From assembly GCF_964204645.1 (NCBI RefSeq), contig NC_134029.1:467501-531500 (forward strand): DNA of 64,000 nucleotides. Reading direction: 5' to 3'. A program made the translations under genes and the position numbers. Position 1 is the first letter of the stretch. Each line of letters begins with the position of its first letter. A model generated the notes under the pieces. It saw only the letters and a program-made list of their open reading frames with translations. It was not told the origin of the DNA and did not search any database. Source of the DNA: Tubulanus polymorphus. Taxonomy: Eukaryota > Nemertea > Palaeonemertea > Tubulaniformes > Tubulanidae. Positions 2,639-34,566 of this stretch are shown in pieces.

Positions 2639-3077
2639 CAAAGCGCGTCATAATGACCGTCAAGTACAAGTGGCTAGCTGAAGTTCATAGTTACATTCGC
2701 CGGCCAATCTGATGTGTATGTGAACTGTTCATGTTTGACGTCCTGTGAATAAGGCCTATAGTCCCCGACCGTCAGACAATCCACGTTCAGTTCAGTGGAC
2801 ATTTTACGAGTAAAAGTTATTTTTGTTTTCAGAAAATATAAATGTATACATAATTGAGTTACATCTATATCTTACACATTACACATTAAACAAATCGGAG
2901 TGAATTGTGTTAAATTTCTGAGGAATTGATTTTCATTTTGTCTTCAACAATAAATTATAAGTTCAGACAATTTCATCTCTAACAAATGTTGAATAGATAC
3001 AATAAATAAGACTTGATTAATATTGATGACGATATATTTTCAAATTCAATTCCAAACAGGAGAGCTGCTGTTTTCAT

Positions 3078-4031
3078 ATGATCATGAATTCTACTCAGAT
3101 GCAGATTGATCCTTCTTACAACAGTTACTTATTACTCATGTCCGTCGAGAGCAAGTCTGGAATCTACCGTTCTGTATCTATGGTCATTCTGATCATCTTC
3201 TTTCTCCTAGGAGCCTTTGGAAATTCAGCTACTTTCCTGATAATGATAAGTCGCAGATTCCGCAGTTTATCTTACGCTAACTATCTGATCGTTTTATCTC
3301 TCAGTGACTTTGTGTTTTGTATCAGTTTTACACTGATGCCTGTTTTACAGTTTGTTCTCTTGCGTCTTAACACCGGTCCTATATTCATCATGAAGTCAGT
3401 TATCAGTTGCCAAATCTATGATTTTGTGATGTTAACTGTGGCATCTACCAGTTCGTGGTTAATAGTAGCGATATCTCTAGAACGTGCGGCAGTTGTTCTC
3501 TTCCCGTTCACATCTCGTTTGATATGTACACCGACATTCGCTCGAAGTGTCATTGTTATTATTTCTACTATAAATGCATCACTAATTGGTATTCCCCCAA
3601 TCGTAATGATACATTTTTCTGACCAGTTCGTGTGCTATTATGAATTATATCAACAAGTTATATTTTTCAAGCTAATTGTTGTCTACGTTTATTTTCTACC
3701 TTTATCTTTGATTATAACATCAAATACGGTTATAATAATTCAATTATTCAGAGGTTCAAAAATAGTTTCGTCCGATCAGAAAACAGCAAAATCAAAACGT
3801 ACAACAATAATGCTTGTAACAGTTTCGCTCTCATTTGCGACATTTACGCTTCCTTCATCTCTAGCTGTATTCCTTCCAATCTCAATTGAGCTGAGGGAAT
3901 TTCTCTATCAACTATTCCATCAGTTCCAAATGTGTAATTATGTGGTTAATTTTTACATATATCTTTTACTGGGACGAGAAATTCGTGAATATTTCTGTAT
4001 GAAAATCCGCTGTAGAAATTCAGTGAAATAA
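3078..4031 (+). CDS. Orphan class A GPCR, array copy 2
   Basis: Intronless, 317 aa, starting MIMNSTQMQID. Same architecture as copy 1: TM1 GAFGNSATF, TM2 LSLSDF, Cys before TM3, ERAAVVLFP in place of DRY, TM5 VYFLPLSLIITSN, basic third intracellular loop with SSDQKTAKSKRTTIM leading into TM6, and NFYIYLLLGREIREYF ending TM7. Differences from copies 1 and 3 cluster in extracellular loop 2 and the outer parts of TM4-TM5 (for example around residues 165-200) and in the TM6-TM7 loop. Those are the parts usually facing the ligand, while the intracellular loops are nearly unchanged. This fits paralogues sharing a G protein but diverging in ligand preference (inference). The shared 3' UTR carries AAATAAA. 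Confidence 0.87.
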   Translation: MIMNSTQMQIDPSYNSYLLLMSVESKSGIYRSVSMVILIIFFLLGAFGNSATFLIMISRRFRSLSYANYLIVLSLSDFVFCISFTLMPVLQFVLLRLNTGPIFIMKSVISCQIYDFVMLTVASTSSWLIVAISLERAAVVLFPFTSRLICTPTFARSVIVIISTINASLIGIPPIVMIHFSDQFVCYYELYQQVIFFKLIVVYVYFLPLSLIITSNTVIIIQLFRGSKIVSSDQKTAKSKRTTIMLVTVSLSFATFTLPSSLAVFLPISIELREFLYQLFHQFQMCNYVVNFYIYLLLGREIREYFCMKIRCRNSVK

Positions 4032-4664: not shown

Positions 4665-5040
4665 CAAAGCGCGTCATAATGACCGTCAAGTACAAGTGGC
4701 TAGCTGAAGTTCATAGTTACATTCGCCGGCCAATCTGATGTGTATGTGAACTGTTCATGTTTGACGTCCTGTGAATAAGGCCTATAGTCCCCGACCGTCA
4801 GACAATCCACGTTCAGTTCAGTGGACATTTTACGAGTAAAAGTTATTTTTGTTTTCAGAAAATATAAATGTATACATAATTGAGTTACATCTATATCTTA
4901 CACATTACACATTAAACAAATCGGAGTGAATTGTGGTAAATTTCTGAGGAATTGATTTTCATTTTGTCTTCAGACAATTTCATCTCTTACAAATAAGACT
5001 TGATTGAAATCGGATGTGGTGAGCTGTTTATTTTGTTCAT

Positions 5041-5994
5041 ATGATCATGAATTCTACTCAGATGCAGATTGGTCCCGCGTACAACAGTTACTTATTACTC
5101 ATGTCTGTGGAGAACAGGTCTGGAATCTACCGAACTGTATCTATGGTCATTCTAGTCATCTCCTTTCTGTTAGGAGCCTTCGGAAATTTGGCTACTTTCC
5201 TGATAATGCTAAGTCGTAGATTCCGCAGTTTATCTTACGCTAACTATCTGATCGCTTTGTCTATCAGTGATTTGATGGTTTGTATCAGTTTTACACTGAT
5301 GCCTGTTTTACAGTTTGTTCTCTTGCATCTAAACATCGGTCCAATGTTCATGATAAATTCACTGATCAGTTGTCAAATCTATGAGGCTCTGACGAATTCT
5401 ATGGGTTCCAATAGTGCGTGGTTAATAGTAGCGATATCTCTAGAACGTGCGGCAGTTGTTCTCTTCCCGTTCACATCTCGTTTGATATGTACACCGACAT
5501 TCGCTCGAAGCGTCATCGTTTTTATTTTCATTATAAGTACATTGCTAATTGGTATTCCCTCAATAGTATTGATACACCTTTCTGGCCAGTTTGTGTCTTA
5601 TTGTAAAATATTTCACCAACTTAGATTTTTCACCTTTTTAGTTGCCTTCATATATTTTCTACCTTTATCGTTGGTTATTACATCAAATTCTATAATAATA
5701 ATTCAATTATTCAGAGGTTCAAAAATAGTTTCGTCCGATCAGAAAACTGCAAAATCAAAACGTACGACAATAATGCTTGTGACAGTTTCACTCGCATTTG
5801 CAACATTTACATTACCAACTTCTATCACTACATATTTACCAATCTCAATTGAACTGAAGGAATTTCTCTTTGAAATATTCTATCAGTTTCAAGTTTCTAA
5901 TTATACGGTTAATTTCTACATATATCTCTTACTAGGACGAGAAATTCGTGAATTTTTCTGTATGAAAATCCGCTGTAGAAATTCAGTGAAATAA
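5041..5994 (+). CDS. Orphan class A GPCR, array copy 3
   Basis: Intronless, 317 aa, beginning MIMNSTQMQIGPAYNSYLLL. It has the full seven-helix pattern, ERA instead of DRY, NFYIY instead of NPxxY, and a short cytoplasmic tail ending RCRNSVK that is identical to copy 2. Thirty bases upstream an in-frame TGA follows an ATG (ATGTGGTGA), which fixes this start and, by homology, the start of copy 1. The promoter region is nearly identical to unit 2. Overlapping frames at 5004-5219 and 5418-5606 are shadows. An active gene is likely because the frame is intact despite clear amino-acid divergence from copy 2. Confidence 0.87.
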   Translation: MIMNSTQMQIGPAYNSYLLLMSVENRSGIYRTVSMVILVISFLLGAFGNLATFLIMLSRRFRSLSYANYLIALSISDLMVCISFTLMPVLQFVLLHLNIGPMFMINSLISCQIYEALTNSMGSNSAWLIVAISLERAAVVLFPFTSRLICTPTFARSVIVFIFIISTLLIGIPSIVLIHLSGQFVSYCKIFHQLRFFTFLVAFIYFLPLSLVITSNSIIIIQLFRGSKIVSSDQKTAKSKRTTIMLVTVSLAFATFTLPTSITTYLPISIELKEFLFEIFYQFQVSNYTVNFYIYLLLGREIREFFCMKIRCRNSVK

Positions 5995-18927: not shown

Positions 18928-20247
18928 AAAACTAAAATGGTGGCGTCGAACATTAGTGACCAAAAATTACAGCGTGTTGTATATGTGAACTAGTTTTTGG
19001 AACACTCTGTATCGCGAATTGTATTGACACATCTCTTTTTTCCTGACTTGTAAATAGTAGAATCGATAAATCAGAAAATCATGATAGAAATCAATAGTTC
19101 GTCTTTAAAACAGTTTAACATTTAATATACAACCGACACAAATAAATAAAAATTCCACTCAGAAATATTTCTTCAACTCTATCTCTTTCTTCATAACTAT
19201 ATATAATCTATTCTAAACTATAGCTGCAGTGATTTGTACTGTTGTCTTATATTCCTGTTTTAGTATCCTCGACGATTGTAGATAAAGAGACCCCTGGCGG
19301 ACGAAGCTGTAACTATGATAACGGTGATTATGATGATGAAATAAAAATGTTTGTTGTGAAGGATTTTTGTCCGGTTTTGTTCTTGTTGTTTCACTGATCT
19401 GGTTAAATAGAGATTCGTATGCGGACGAAAGAAACGCACGCCGAATGAGTGACGTCATCTTCTGGAACAACTCCGACCCTATAATTTACTGATAGTCAAT
19501 ATGCACGATCGTTCCATTCTAGATACATACATTCCTCCGTCCCCGGTTGGAAAATAAAATTTCAAAATCTCCAAATATGTTCTCCAGATATGAATCTGAA
19601 TTCTGCAAATACGAACATACATACGTGACTTCTAATTTGATTCTACCCCCAGTAGGTCACGGAAAACGCCCAGAATAAGAGTCAGTGAACTATTTCAAAA
19701 TCTGTATGATTTAGAATTATATTCGAATATATTGTTTGTTCTATATAACATGTTATTATGACACTTGTCATAAATTCCACAGTCGTTTTCCAAGTACTTC
19801 ACTTTACAATATCTATGTCAACAAGAATCTGCCACCATCAAAAACGTCACAACAGTCTCAAGATGTTTTATAGGAAGTTAGGTAATTCATAACAAATATA
19901 GATATCTTATTATTGCGCTTCAAAAAACGAATTGAAAACTCAAACGGGATCCCGCGAGGTAGGATTACGAATAGACAGGGACAGGCAGGGAAAGGTTTTA
20001 TATATTGATATCAACTTTAACCTGGATGCTTCTTCAATTCATTCTAAATTGAGCCTTTCTATAAAGCCGTAAACTATTATTTCCTTCGATTAAAAATAGA
20101 TGATTCATGATTGACAATTGACAGCACAAAAAATCTACAGAAAATGGTTTAATATTAAGCGGTTGTGTTAGATGTGTAGATTTAGGTATCTTATTACAAT
20201 TCTATGACATACCGCGGGTTCTTGTATTCATTTCATTATATTCACAG
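18928..20247. other. 3' UTR of the BRICHOS gene and intergenic DNA before SLC6
   Basis: AATAAATAAA near 19141 is the likely polyadenylation signal of the BRICHOS transcript. The rest is AT-rich with no convincing exon. The minus-strand 85-codon frame at 19213-19470 has no splice or domain support. Confidence 0.5.
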
Positions 20248-23200
20248 TAAAGTTTGCGCAGTAACTCGAGGATAACGACGTCTTGAATCCCTCGTCCTTT
20301 CCAGCGCCACGGTGGAATTAAACAACAAGGCAGATATGGAAAAGGTTTGAGATTTTACATGATCATTATATCAGCTATCTAAATCATTTACGATGGTTTC
20401 CATAGGCGAGTGAGTGAAAAGTGGACTTTTTCTACAATCTGTCTCAGTATTATGTCGGTTTTCTTCATTTAGATTACAGAAATCACAGCCTATGGAAATC
20501 AACATGGCACCCACGAATTTCGTCTTCTTTTACAATTTTTCAGATGTAAATGTGTTTTTATTATATTTGGCAAACTTTCCGAGAATTGTGATAATCGTGT
20601 GATACGTATAAAGTATAGGTCTATCTAAATCATTAGTCTGCATGCAATCAACCGGATTTTCTGTATAGATTTGCATTGTTTGATTAGTTAAATCACATTC
20701 TCAGCTTAAAGACACTTTTATTTCGTTATCGTTATTAAGATGAGTTCAAGAAGCCGTTTTACAGTTTTGAGGCACAACTTTTTGGAAATTTGTCTCCGTT
20801 ACGTTTCCAATTTATCTTTTTGGACCACCTGGAAACTGTAAAAAGATATAAAACCTTTTTTGAGATGAAAATAAATTACTATTAAGAAGGTTTATTTCAA
20901 GTGGTTTTAGAAGTTTTTGACTCATTTCTATTTACTGAAAGCGGACAGTGTATTGTAGTATGTAGTGTATATTCACGTATTCAATGTCCCGCGGCTATTA
21001 CACATTTTATCACGATCTACACCGAATCAAATATCTATATAACTAAATGCCGATTTAATATTCATTAATCGTGAATTCTTTTCTTGCACCACTGGAAACA
21101 TTAGAAGCTCTTTCCGTAAAATTGTCCGCAAACATTTTTATAATGATTGTACTTCCTGTGAATTTCGTCCGCGAGTATTTTCAAATCAATTCTGTAATTT
21201 CTTCAAATGTTATATTCCACCAGGTGGAGTCTGGGTCGTCTGTGTCCGATAAACCGGACGGCAGTAAAAAGGAAGTAAAACGCGGGAACTGGACTGGAAA
21301 GTTGGACTTTCTTCTGTCAACGATTGGTTACGCGGTCGGTTTAGGGAATGTTTGGAGGTTTCCATTTTTAGCGTACAGAAATGGCGGCGGTGAATTCAAT
21401 GAATATTTATTAAAAAAAACATCATTTATAAAATGATGATGATGATGATAAATTAATATTGATAATATTTCTGTTTAGGTGCGTTTTTGATCCCGTACGT
21501 GATCATGTTAGCTTTTACTGGTATTCCACTGTTTTTCCTAGAACTGGCTTTGGGTCAGTTCGCATCTGAGGGTCCGATAACAGTGTGGAAATTAGCTCCA
21601 CTCTTTAAAGGTACTTCATCAATCTACATATAATCATTTCAAATTTTCACCGATTTTTGTAGTGAAGCATGATTTAGATGCAGAGATGCTGAGTCAAATT
21701 TACTTGGAAGATTTATCAATATACGTCGAATTGGTATTGTTAAATGATAGAAGCTTTTTAGTTGGAAGGGCATCGAAAAATTCACTATTCACAAATCTTA
21801 GATTAGAAATTGAATTCATTATTGAAACTTGTTTTTTCATTCTGAGTATGACAATGAATTTGTTTCTGCAGGGATAGGTTGGGCGATGGTTGTCGTAAGT
21901 GGATTAGTCGGTATTTACTACAATGTTATTATAGCTTGGACAATCTTCTATTTCGTGGCTTCGTTAACGTCTAAATTACCGTGGATGGATTGTCAGAATC
22001 CCTGGAATACACCGGCCTGTAAGGAAGCGGGAAGTATGTAGCAAAGAATAGTAATCTGAATCACTCTTCGTCTGGACCCAGATTCACAGTCGTGATGTCT
22101 GTGGTCTCAAATCTTCCTCTAAAGTTGTAGTAGAGTGGCTATATTTTTAAAACGCTGTGTAGAATTAAACCCAACCATAAAACGAATAAACTTTTTGCCC
22201 CCCTTGGGAGTAATTACTTAATGGTGGCATCTAGATACCGAAAAAAGAAATGGAGAGAGACATGGGCCCCATATGTTGTCACCACGTCGATTTCCGCTCA
22301 AATCCAACGACCTTGCCCAAACATGAACCATCACCCAGCTGCGATGGCCGAGTGGTTAAGGCGTTGGACTTGAAATCCAATGGGATCTTCCCGCGTAGGT
22401 TCGAACCCTACTCGCAGCGAATATAATATTTTGTTCCGACCTCCTTTGAGTGGACTTGATTCAAAATGTTAAATTCAATTGACGATTTTGAAAACACTAG
22501 ATATTTTTATTTCAGAGCCGTATTGTAACATAACGGCGAATATAACAGTTAACTGTACAAACGCGATCGGGTCTCAATCTCCCAGCGAGCAGTATTGGGA
22601 GTAAGTTTAAATTCTTTGTCTCTTCAGGGGTTACATTGAAACACTGTCTACAGTTTCATCAATGTTACATTGAGAATGAATTATTCTTAATTCTAGAATC
22701 AAATTTTACTAAAATTTGTGGAACTGATTCCTTAGAATTTGAATGCACTATCTTCGTCAATGTTACGTGACCGCGTTTGGGCTAAAATAGTCTCTTTCTT
22801 TAGGCGACACGTATTAGGATTAACGGATGGATTAGAGAATATGGGGATTATCCGCTGGAAACTGGCATTGTGTTTGTTAGGTGCATGGGTTGTAATATTC
22901 CTCTGCCTCATTAAAGGAGTCAAATCCTCGGGAAAGGTAAAACTTCAGACCCATTTACACAGTTAACTTCGGATTCATAAGAAAATCTTGAAATAGATCT
23001 TGAATAGATCTTGAAATTCCTAGAATAAATTGTATTTTATTCTGTAGGTTGTATATTTCACTGCTACATTTCCGTACATTGTATTGGTAATACTGTTGGT
23101 GAGAGGAGTCACTTTACCCGGCGCTAAAAAAGGAATAATGTTTTACGTGACTCCCGATTTTAACAAACTCAAAGATTCAAAGGTATCTTTCATTCCAAAA

Positions 23201-25779
23201 TCAAGCCAATCTTGTAAATACACTGAATTAAATTTATTCGCAAAACATCATGGATTTTTAATGGATCTCCTTGTTTATTACGTATAGGTTTGGGCTGATG
23301 CAGCTACTCAGATATTCTATTCACTAGGTGTCGGGTTCGGAGGTTTAGAAGTCATGTCCAGTTACAACAAATTCAAAAATAACTGTTACAGGTATTGACT
23401 GATACTCATAACAAACACGTATACATTGTCTATCCTATATTGTAGATTGTATGCCTTATATTGTATATTGTATGTCGTATATTATGTATTGTATATCTTA
23501 TATTGTATATTGTAGGGATGCATTGTTAGTATCAATAATTAATTGTATGACCAGTGTATTTGCCGGGTTTGTTATATTTTCTGTAATGGGTTTCATGTCT
23601 GAAAAGATGGCTGTTCCTGTTGCGCAAGTCGCTAAAAGTGGTAAATAGTATATATCACAATTATCGATTCAATATTTCTAATTTGCATAAATTTGCATTG
23701 GTTTGCATAAATTAACTGTTCATGGTTCGTATAAATGTGTATGTTTGTTGTTTAGGACCCGGATTAGCGTTTGTCGCGTATCCTGAAGGCATCGCTCAGA
23801 TGCCAATTGCTCCACTTTGGTCAGTTCTGTTTTTTCTGATGTTGTTTACGCTCGGTTTGGATAGTCAGGTATTCCATCAATCAATATTCTAAACTTTAAT
23901 TGTTCAATTAACCGATGAAATGTGTTTGTGTTGTGTTTTATAGTTTGCTATGATGGAGACTGTTATCAGCGCCATCTCTGATGAGTTTCTCGTATTAAGG
24001 AAATATAAGATGCTATTTACTGGTTTTCTCTGTGTCCTGTTGTTCCTCCTCGGGCTCCCATGCGTTATGGACGTACGTTTACAACTATAAGTATGGAATG
24101 TTTTCCGGGGTGATGTGGAATGTATTTCAGGGTGGAATGTATTTCAGGGTGTAATGTGTAATGTATTTCAGGGTGTAATGTAGAATGTATTTCAGGGTGG
24201 AATGTGGAATGTATTTCAGGGTGTAATGTAGAATGTATTTCAGGGTGTAATGTAGAATGTATTTCAGGGTGTAATGTATTTCAGGGTGGAATGTTTATGT
24301 AATTCAGGGTGGAATGTTTATGTATTTCAGGGTGGAATGTTTATGTATTTCAGGGTGGAATGTATTTCAGGGTGGAATGTTTATGTATTTCAGGGTGGAA
24401 TGTTTATGTATTTCAGGGTGGAATGTTTATGTATTTCAGGGTGGAATGTATTTCAGGGTGGAATGTTTATGTATTTCAGGGTGGAATGTATTTCAGGGTG
24501 GAATGTTTATGTAATTCAGGGTGGAATGTTTATGTATTTCAGGGTGGAATGTTTATGTATTTCAGGGTGGAATGTATTTCAGGGTGGAATGTTTATGTAA
24601 TTCAGGGTGGAATGTTTATGTATTTCAGGGTGGAATGTTTATGTATTTCAGGGTGGAATGTACATATTCAATTTGATCGACTCATACAGTGGTGGATACT
24701 CATTAATGGTTATTGCGCTCGTTGAAGTAATCGTCATATCATGGATTTACGGTACGAGAAACACGTATCGTCCTGGGTTCGAATCCAGACATATAAATCA
24801 TAAAATAAAAACTCATACATTTCAGGTTATAAGAAATTTGCCGCAGATATCAAAATGATGATTGGATTCACACCGAATATTTACTGGAGAATCACCTGGC
24901 AGTTTTTGACTCCAGCTATTATTGTCGTCAGTATCGAAAAAGTCCTGGCCTCATAAAACACCTTATGACAGTGCAATACAATAAAATACAAAATAATTTT
25001 ACAATATAAACATTCATAAATCAATAAAGTACAGACAGGTAAGTGCGTGCATGAAAATACGCGCCACCAACTCGTGATGTCATAGGGAGTTTTATGGAGG
25101 CATCCATCTTTTTTATCCAGCAGCAAAAAAAATACTTTATTCGTGATTTCAGTTTATACTGGTGTTTTCTGCAATAAAAGCGACACCGTTAAGTTTGGGT
25201 AGTTACCTATACCCATGCTGGGCTCAGATGTTGGGTATCACTATGGTGTTTGCATCAATTGTGTTTATACCGCTAATGATGGGAATCGAGACGTGTAAAC
25301 ATTTCGGCTGCAAAAAGGTAATTTTCAGACGAAACAAATATAATCAAAATAGCCGCAAAGCAGCGATAACGGGTTTCGGCCCTTTTGGTTGAACATTCCG
25401 TACCATGAAGCCAATGAAGTTATCAGTTCATTAAAATGCAGCTATCATGCAGGGAATGCCATCAGGGGGGTCGGAAACGCCCTATACATTAAATCAATAT
25501 GGGGTACTAACTATAAAAAAAACTTATCAAAATAGAATTACCTTTGTATTCAAATTGATGATCGTTGTATTTTTTCAGACATTGAAAATCATGGTGAGTC
25601 CGACTCCAGATTGGGGACCGGCTGAACCGGAATACAGAACCGGAAAATACGCCATCGATCGCCAGAGGTCACGTGATCCGATACCAGCAAAATCTAACGA
25701 TATACAACTGCAAAAACGGCCGTCAGACGGCGCTACTAACCAAGGCTATGTACCCGATGGCGATTTTGCTCACTTTTGA
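20248..25779 (+). CDS. Sodium- and chloride-dependent transporter, SLC6 family, glycine-transporter-like
   Basis: Coding exons: 20336-20344 (in exon 20248-20344, MEK; least certain), 21224-21389, 21479-21610, 21872-22033, 22516-22600, 22804-22936, 23048-23182, 23288-23391, 23516-23640, 23756-23868, 23944-24072, 24652-24751, 24826-24926, 25153-25317, 25579-25779. All phases agree; 619 aa, normal for SLC6. TM1 has [13 protein letters not shown] and NGGGAFLIPY; then [15 protein letters not shown], and extracellular loop 2 with paired cysteines and three N-glycosylation sequons (NIT, NIT, NCT). [30 protein letters not shown] (TM6) and [11 protein letters not shown] (TM7-TM8 loop) match glycine transporters best, though a related amino-acid transporter cannot be excluded. 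It is expected to couple uptake to Na+ and Cl- at the plasma membrane. Intron 4 holds a tRNA-Ser; intron 11 is filled by a splice-site-derived minisatellite. AATAAA is near 26310. Confidence 0.9.
22338..22419 (+). tRNA. tRNA-Ser (TGA)
   Basis: 82 nt. Acceptor GCTGCGA pairs perfectly with TCGCAGC; D-arm ATGGCCGAGTGGTTAAGGC; anticodon stem TTGGA/TCCAA with loop CTTGAAA, giving TGA; long variable arm GGGATCTTCCCGC; T-loop TTCGAAC. Located in intron 4 of the SLC6 gene, same strand. Confidence 0.95.
23440..23515 (+). repeat. TATTGTATA-type simple repeat abutting an exon
   Basis: Imperfect repeats of TTGTATATTGTATG directly before the acceptor of SLC6 exon 9. The acceptor itself (ATATTGTAG) is part of the repeat, and there is no normal polypyrimidine tract. 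Confidence 0.6.
24104..24660 (+). repeat. Minisatellite made of tandem copies of a 3' splice site
   Basis: About 25 copies of TATTTCAGGGTGGAATG with spacers of variable length (ATGTAT, TTTATGTA, TGTAATG). The last copy is the real acceptor of SLC6 exon 12: TATTTCAG followed by GGTGGAATG, which encodes GGM of the conserved GGMY. The array therefore multiplies the acceptor plus the first nine coding bases through the whole intron. Frames at 24274-24725 are products of the repeat. The left end (24104-24260) contains more diverged GTGTAAT units, and the right end is nearly uniform, as expected if expansion was recent near the exon. Confidence 0.93.

Positions 25780-29311: not shown

Positions 29312-34566
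<5,255 letters not shown>

Follow-up and report, generated by a model that had tools for sequence, protein, structure and literature searches.

A 25-copy repeat array across the intron 11 acceptor of an SLC6 transporter gene as an example of splice-site mirages, with further cases in the same genome

Mirages in the Adh3 gene of amphioxus were reportedly described by Canestro et al. in 2002. They are defined as minisatellite-like duplications of intron-exon boundaries in a study on amphioxus globin genes, which names Adh3 as the earlier case (PMC3087553), and further amphioxus mirages in the genes for PGBD5 and troponin C appear in a second paper (PMC3902484). According to the globin study, the Adh3 data together with RT-PCR on the globin genes suggest that regular splicing is undisturbed although many of the copies keep their splice signals, and the mirage clusters show length instability (PMC3087553). 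A tandem repeat across an exon-intron boundary is also mentioned for potato (PMC4974935).

Here, we describe an arrangement of this kind in Tubulanus polymorphus. It lies in a window of 64,000 nucleotides, meaning the whole stretch of DNA that was analyzed (contig NC_134029.1, positions 467,501 to 531,500 of the forward strand), whose plus strand carries an intact SLC6 (sodium:neurotransmitter symporter) gene of the proline/glycine-transporter-like type at 20336..25779. Its 15 exons, joined at GT-AG introns, form a single uninterrupted frame of 619 aa. Residues 23-547 of the protein align with positions 1-523 of 524 of the Pfam SNF profile PF00209 (E 2.7e-224), and this full-length domain without stops places the protein in the SLC6 family. 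The best match in the PDB is the Sodium-dependent proline transporter (E 1.6e-206), followed by glycine transporters, and the alignment to the solved proline transporter runs through the residues ...TDGGMY.... Intron 11 (24073..24651, plus strand; 579 nt, phase 0, donor GAC/gtacgt, with the slash marking the junction) is placed by the exon join and by the position of its acceptor in related genes (see below), and exon 12 (24652..24751, plus strand; 100 nt, donor at 24752), which starts with GGMYIF..., by the exon join and the PDB match.

Approximately 93% of intron 11 is made up of a tandem array of 25 copies of TATTTCAG directly followed by GGTGGAATG, or of close variants thereof (24123..24660, plus strand), in agreement with a first-pass annotation in which about 25 tandem copies were said to fill this intron. 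The array contains 25 TTCAG/GG sites, whose successive spacings are 17, five times 24, 17, three times 23, 17, three times 23, 17, 23, 17, three times 23, 17, and three times 23. When each unit is read from one acceptor to the next, the unit string is ABCDCCEFGGAGGGAGAFGGAFGGH with lengths of 17, 24, and 23, and each unit comprises at least the final 8 bases of the intron together with the 9 bases that open the exon, the latter being either GGTGGAATG or GGTGTAATG. Tandem Repeats Finder places the array at 24115-24662, with chiefly a 23-bp unit plus an 86-bp higher-order unit. According to the unit reading, the 5′ part (24131..24284, plus strand) is more varied and consists of 24-bp and 17-bp units, several of them with GGTGTAATG. 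The 3′ part (24285..24651, plus strand) is uniform, with 23- and 17-bp units and the 86-bp higher-order repeat F-G-G-A, as seen with both Tandem Repeats Finder and the unit reading. The last copy (24644..24660, plus strand) joins the authentic acceptor TATTTCAG, which ends at 24651, to the first nine bases of exon 12, GGTGGAATG, and nine of the 24 upstream copies are identical to it over all 23 bases compared. With up to three mismatches, TATTTCAGGGTGGAATG is found 26 times in the window, 25 times in the array and once as a stray match on the minus strand at 19151, compared to a mean of 0.22 and a maximum of 2 in 100 dinucleotide shuffles of the window. Perfect copies of TATTTCAGGGTGGAATG number 17 in the 267.8-Mb assembly, and all of them are located at the intron 11 array.

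The locus thus combines a repeat unit holding both an intron end and an exon start in 25 copies, a copy at the array edge that represents the authentic junction (619-aa frame, SNF match, paralog acceptors), and 24 out of 24 upstream copies that keep TTCAG/GG (7.2-13.5 bits, see below). Since 25 copies stand against a window expectation of 0.22, the same arrangement exists in amphioxus, and more cases are found in the genome, the SLC6 array is a real and clear example of the already described mirage kind. The initial impression of a minisatellite without a described precedent, voiced for an acceptor plus a coding start in a transporter gene, is not upheld for the arrangement as such, as both amphioxus papers contain it (PMC3087553, PMC3902484). 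In the mirages of Adh3, BflGb6, BflGb9, troponin C, and PGBD5 given there, the unit likewise spans the exon-intron boundary (PMC3087553, PMC3902484), and in BflGb6 it consists of the 3′ end of the intron plus a 5′ portion of the exon, as in the SLC6 array (PMC3087553). Many copies with splice signals, an authentic exon at the edge, and homogenized units are further common features. The unit sizes differ, with 25 copies of 17-24 bp in the SLC6 array, units of 10-72 bp in Adh3, and six and three units of 150-160 bp in BflGb6 (PMC3087553). Human internal tandem repeats in segmental duplications are comparable as minisatellites at exon-intron boundaries with extra splice signals. In contrast to the SLC6 array, where use of the upstream copies is predicted to be unproductive and the intron position is old, they can yield alternative splicing and novel introns (PMC2812944). 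Intron gain by tandem duplication similarly involves a duplication that crosses the 3′ boundary of an intron and carries splicing signals along. There, however, a new intron arises, whereas in the SLC6 case an old one was lengthened. An SLC6 mirage was not found in the literature searched, with SLC6 included as a term and with most subscription papers outside its coverage. What is new here is the recurrence of mirages in one genome, namely in an SLC6 paralog, a CWC27-like gene, and a furry-like gene, with two weaker candidates.

That the final copy is the true acceptor and the start of the exon encoding GGMY, as initially annotated, was confirmed, and the check for an exon 12 acceptor lying elsewhere likewise upheld the start at 24652 (619-aa frame, SNF and PDB matches, 19 of 20 paralogous loci). 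The paralog set was derived from 38 assembly matches covering this region of the protein, of which 30 were taken; three of these represent the focal gene and the remaining 27 merge into 20 loci. An acceptor maps by homology exactly at the exon 12 start position in 19 of them, the locus of L016 being the sole one without a mappable acceptor at this position. At these mapped junctions (19 of 20 loci), Tandem Repeats Finder did not detect an array, and for each of the 19 acceptors the agreement with any upstream copy stays below 18 of 23 matches. Because the acceptor is kept at the same place in the paralogous loci without arrays, intron 11 is old and the array is specific to the focal gene among the SLC6 genes examined. 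Gain of a new intron by tandem duplication was ruled out, since 19 of 20 loci share an acceptor at this codon boundary.

With respect to its origin, the authentic junction is flanked by a direct repeat of ATGTA (24641-24645 and 24658-24662, plus strand), the copies of which are exactly 17 bp apart and might have served as a slippage site. As this spacing equals the length of the basic unit, and as the 5′ units are varied and the 3′ units uniform, we favor replication slippage (or unequal exchange) across the 3′ splice site as the process which formed the minisatellite. Slippage between the two repeats, one at the intron end and one at the exon start, would have copied the acceptor together with nine exonic bases, insertions of 6-7 bp would have turned the 17-bp unit into the 23- and 24-bp units, and the 86-bp blocks may have been amplified later. 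Taken as a whole, it is probable that the array is a mirage of this origin, in which the last copy is productive, use of the upstream copies is unproductive and cleared by decay, and the repeats are tolerated rather than functional. Tandem arrays are error-prone in assemblies, and for one of the published mirages a draft assembly was wrong (PMC3087553). Nevertheless, an assembly artefact is extremely improbable here in view of the ordered succession of seven distinct upstream unit types, the position of the array, which is flanked by exons 11 and 12 as expected, and the further acceptor-spanning arrays in the same assembly.

None of the 24 upstream acceptors yields the full-length protein, as 13 of them cause a frameshift and 11 are in frame but run into a stop inside the array. 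All 24 resulting premature stops precede the last exon junction by no less than 292 nt, and, by the usual rule, a stop this far ahead of the last exon junction marks an mRNA for nonsense-mediated decay. Given that the full 619-aa protein is obtained only with the last acceptor, the last copy would be the one giving productive mRNA, as judged from protein homology in one assembly and with the array length as assembled. The mRNAs from upstream acceptors would probably be removed by nonsense-mediated decay, and such decay of wrong products could explain why the array is tolerated. Frameshifts as well as in-frame additions of GGM(F/Y)-type residues had been anticipated for the upstream copies. The former are found (13 out of 24), but the latter are not, since all 11 in-frame acceptors meet a stop and GGM insertions are thus not obtained by simple retention. 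The nearest in-frame path, a 69-nt readthrough from the acceptor at 24582, is closed by a TAA (24598..24600, plus strand) in a variant unit, TAATTCAG, that extends to 24605. By chance, a TAA would fall in such a place with a probability of 3 in 24 (0.125), which is not significant and gives no sign of selection, and selection for stops in the array was accordingly rejected. The fact that 24 out of 24 upstream choices are unproductive would also fit a regulatory array, in which the choice between a productive (last) and a poison (upstream) acceptor tunes the transporter level. We regard this as improbable, since the 13 frameshifts are as predicted from unit lengths not divisible by three, the placement of the TAA is within chance, and a spanning array is present at 0 of the 19 mapped paralogous acceptors.

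A weight matrix trained on the 13 other acceptors of the focal gene, and hence small and rough, assigned 12.94 bits to the authentic acceptor and 7.2-13.5 bits to the array acceptors, compared to 1.6-13.1 bits for the acceptors of the gene's 13 other introns, each left out of training in turn. The proposal that the earlier copies offer a matching acceptor is borne out by these values. In mammals, scanning prefers whichever suitable AG comes first downstream of the branch point (PMC1431707), and a choice of the last of 25 acceptors therefore needs an additional cause. One candidate is an active and nearly exclusive choice of the last acceptor, for instance by exon definition via the exon 12 donor and exon 12 enhancers, which would leave the upstream copies inert. 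This would be in line with amphioxus mirages, which are reported to splice normally (PMC3087553, PMC3902484), and with only the last copy directly preceding the 100-nt exon with a donor at 24752. Copies 23-86 nt upstream, however, would define exons of 123-186 nt, which are ordinary sizes for this gene, and nine of the upstream copies do not differ from the last one over 23 nt, so that we place this explanation somewhat short of an even chance. Alternatively, scanning might involve skipping, with a TTTAT branch point bypassing its own AG as too close and serving that of the next unit 34 nt away, and with several branch points competing. Branch-point-like TTTAT motifs are indeed present at 11, 34, and 57 nt from the acceptor, which within the 23-bp unit corresponds to 11 nt to its own and 34 nt to the next acceptor, the A being separated by 11 nt from the end of the AG in its unit. 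An AG less than 12-15 nt away from a branch point can be skipped (PMC1431707). As the same geometry recurs in every 23-bp unit, the last copy is not singled out by it, and TTTAT is a candidate branch point by resemblance; skipping of this sort is conceivable but doubtful. Intron 11 together with exon 12 is predicted to fold more stably than shuffled sequences (z -3.9, 20 shuffles). In the predicted folds the last acceptor does not stand out as accessible, ranking 14, 16, 23, and 14 of 25 under four settings, and an RNA structure hiding the upstream copies was rejected on these ranks. A mixture of mechanisms, with decay removing the wrong products, most likely underlies the acceptor choice, as far as can be judged from sequence. 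The array provides a natural construct in which 25 nearly identical 3′ splice sites follow one another and nine match the protein-making one over 23 bases, and it would allow a direct test between scanning, exon definition, and decay of wrong products.

Further acceptor-spanning arrays were found in the same assembly. In an SLC6 paralog (L038), a 21-bp array at 518-626 spans the acceptor before the homolog of exon 8, and the copy 21 nt upstream would be in frame and open. The same paralog also carries a 22-bp array with a repeated donor-like GTGAGTT just past the exon 12 donor (1623-1699). Triple-tandem TTTCAGG was matched 331 times in a search of the whole assembly, and the matches listed represent about 25 separate places, including the focal one. 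Of the 24 other listed places 17 were read, the scan being biased toward acceptors, and two of these 17 (L073 and L074) lead straight into homology-supported exons. L073, on the minus strand at G000:C2:8031700-8033100, is an acceptor-spanning array of 36-bp units (one of 24 bp) in a CWC27-like gene, and the exon behind it matches the end of the CWC27 homolog in PDB 5z56 (E 2.6e-10). All 11 upstream acceptors matched by script are in frame and open into the exon, and their use would add multiples of approximately 12 aa, e.g., LAHKLFCVIYFR. CWC27 itself is a spliceosome protein. In L074 (G000:C2:31745800-31747200), a 37-bp array of GGTTATGTAACGGAGATNATG plus an intron end is followed by a 98-aa open frame that starts with the last copy. 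When the exons after this frame were joined by eye, they gave a match to Pfam MOR2-PAG1_C (E 8.4e-16), and we take the gene to be furry-like. The three upstream copies scanned result in a frameshift or stop, and the protein gave nothing meaningful against the PDB (best E 0.87). The arrays L077 and L079 lead into coding-looking frames and are weaker candidates, L077 having no PDB match for its protein and L079 only a sub-threshold Pfam match (E 0.056). First-exon translations after five of the other arrays, L074 included, gave no Pfam match. A convincing exon was not seen by eye in 12 of the 17 places read, and L078 is ambiguous. Several genes thus carry mirages in a genome which may stand outside the lancelets. 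A broader generalization would be that in many genes the 3′ splice site is repeatedly crossed by growing minisatellites, that the spliceosome reliably uses the last acceptor against the first-AG rule, and that some genes, such as the CWC27-like one, gain a stock of in-frame, stop-free extensions; we consider this unlikely.

For the question of enrichment at acceptors, 126 paralog acceptors were compared with random positions, the focal gene being excluded as it had prompted the search, and five of the acceptors being placed loosely (off by at least 3 bases). One of the 126 has an acceptor-spanning repeat with at least 18 of 23 matches, and the same one is retained at at least 22. Random positions in the paralog loci reach these thresholds in 0.8% and 0.1% of 6000 draws (0.5% and 0.07% without L038). 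For random positions in the rest of the window, away from the focal array, the values are 3.5% and 2.5%, likewise of 6000 draws. With a single paralog case this comparison is without power, and the background varies with the control chosen. Triple-tandem TTTCAGG yielded 331 matches versus 15 for the reversed word, with the control word CAGTTGT giving 2468 versus 131, and the word frequencies of TTTCAGG and GGACTTT differ four-fold in a sample that overrepresents genes and arrays. Minisatellites are abundant in the genome, with 20 tandem arrays covering 5.3% of the window. A recurring minisatellite family around CAGTTGTGAGTTAGAGTTAACTCTGAACTCAGGATCCAGTTCCA was seen at G000:C1:271k, C1:31.4M, C1:31.6M, C2:30.4M, and other places.

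Additionally, intron 8 of the focal SLC6 gene holds a 21-bp array (23425-23514) without exon sequence, which ends one base short of the intron end, exon 9 beginning at 23516. A tRNA-Ser (TGA) gene is located within intron 4 (22338-22419), and the window contains nine tRNA genes, six for Ser and three for Ile. In intron 12, GGTTCGAATCC (24770-24795) is absent from the ARAGORN list; we presume that it resembles a tRNA B box and is perhaps a tRNA or SINE remnant. Elsewhere in the window, approximately 46 tandem CTG triplets (30632-30768) read as open poly-alanine in one frame, near reading frames which we take to be carboxylesterase-like. Three similar long open frames (1260-2246, 3030-4028, and 5023-5991) presumably represent tandem single-exon receptors of the rhodopsin type.
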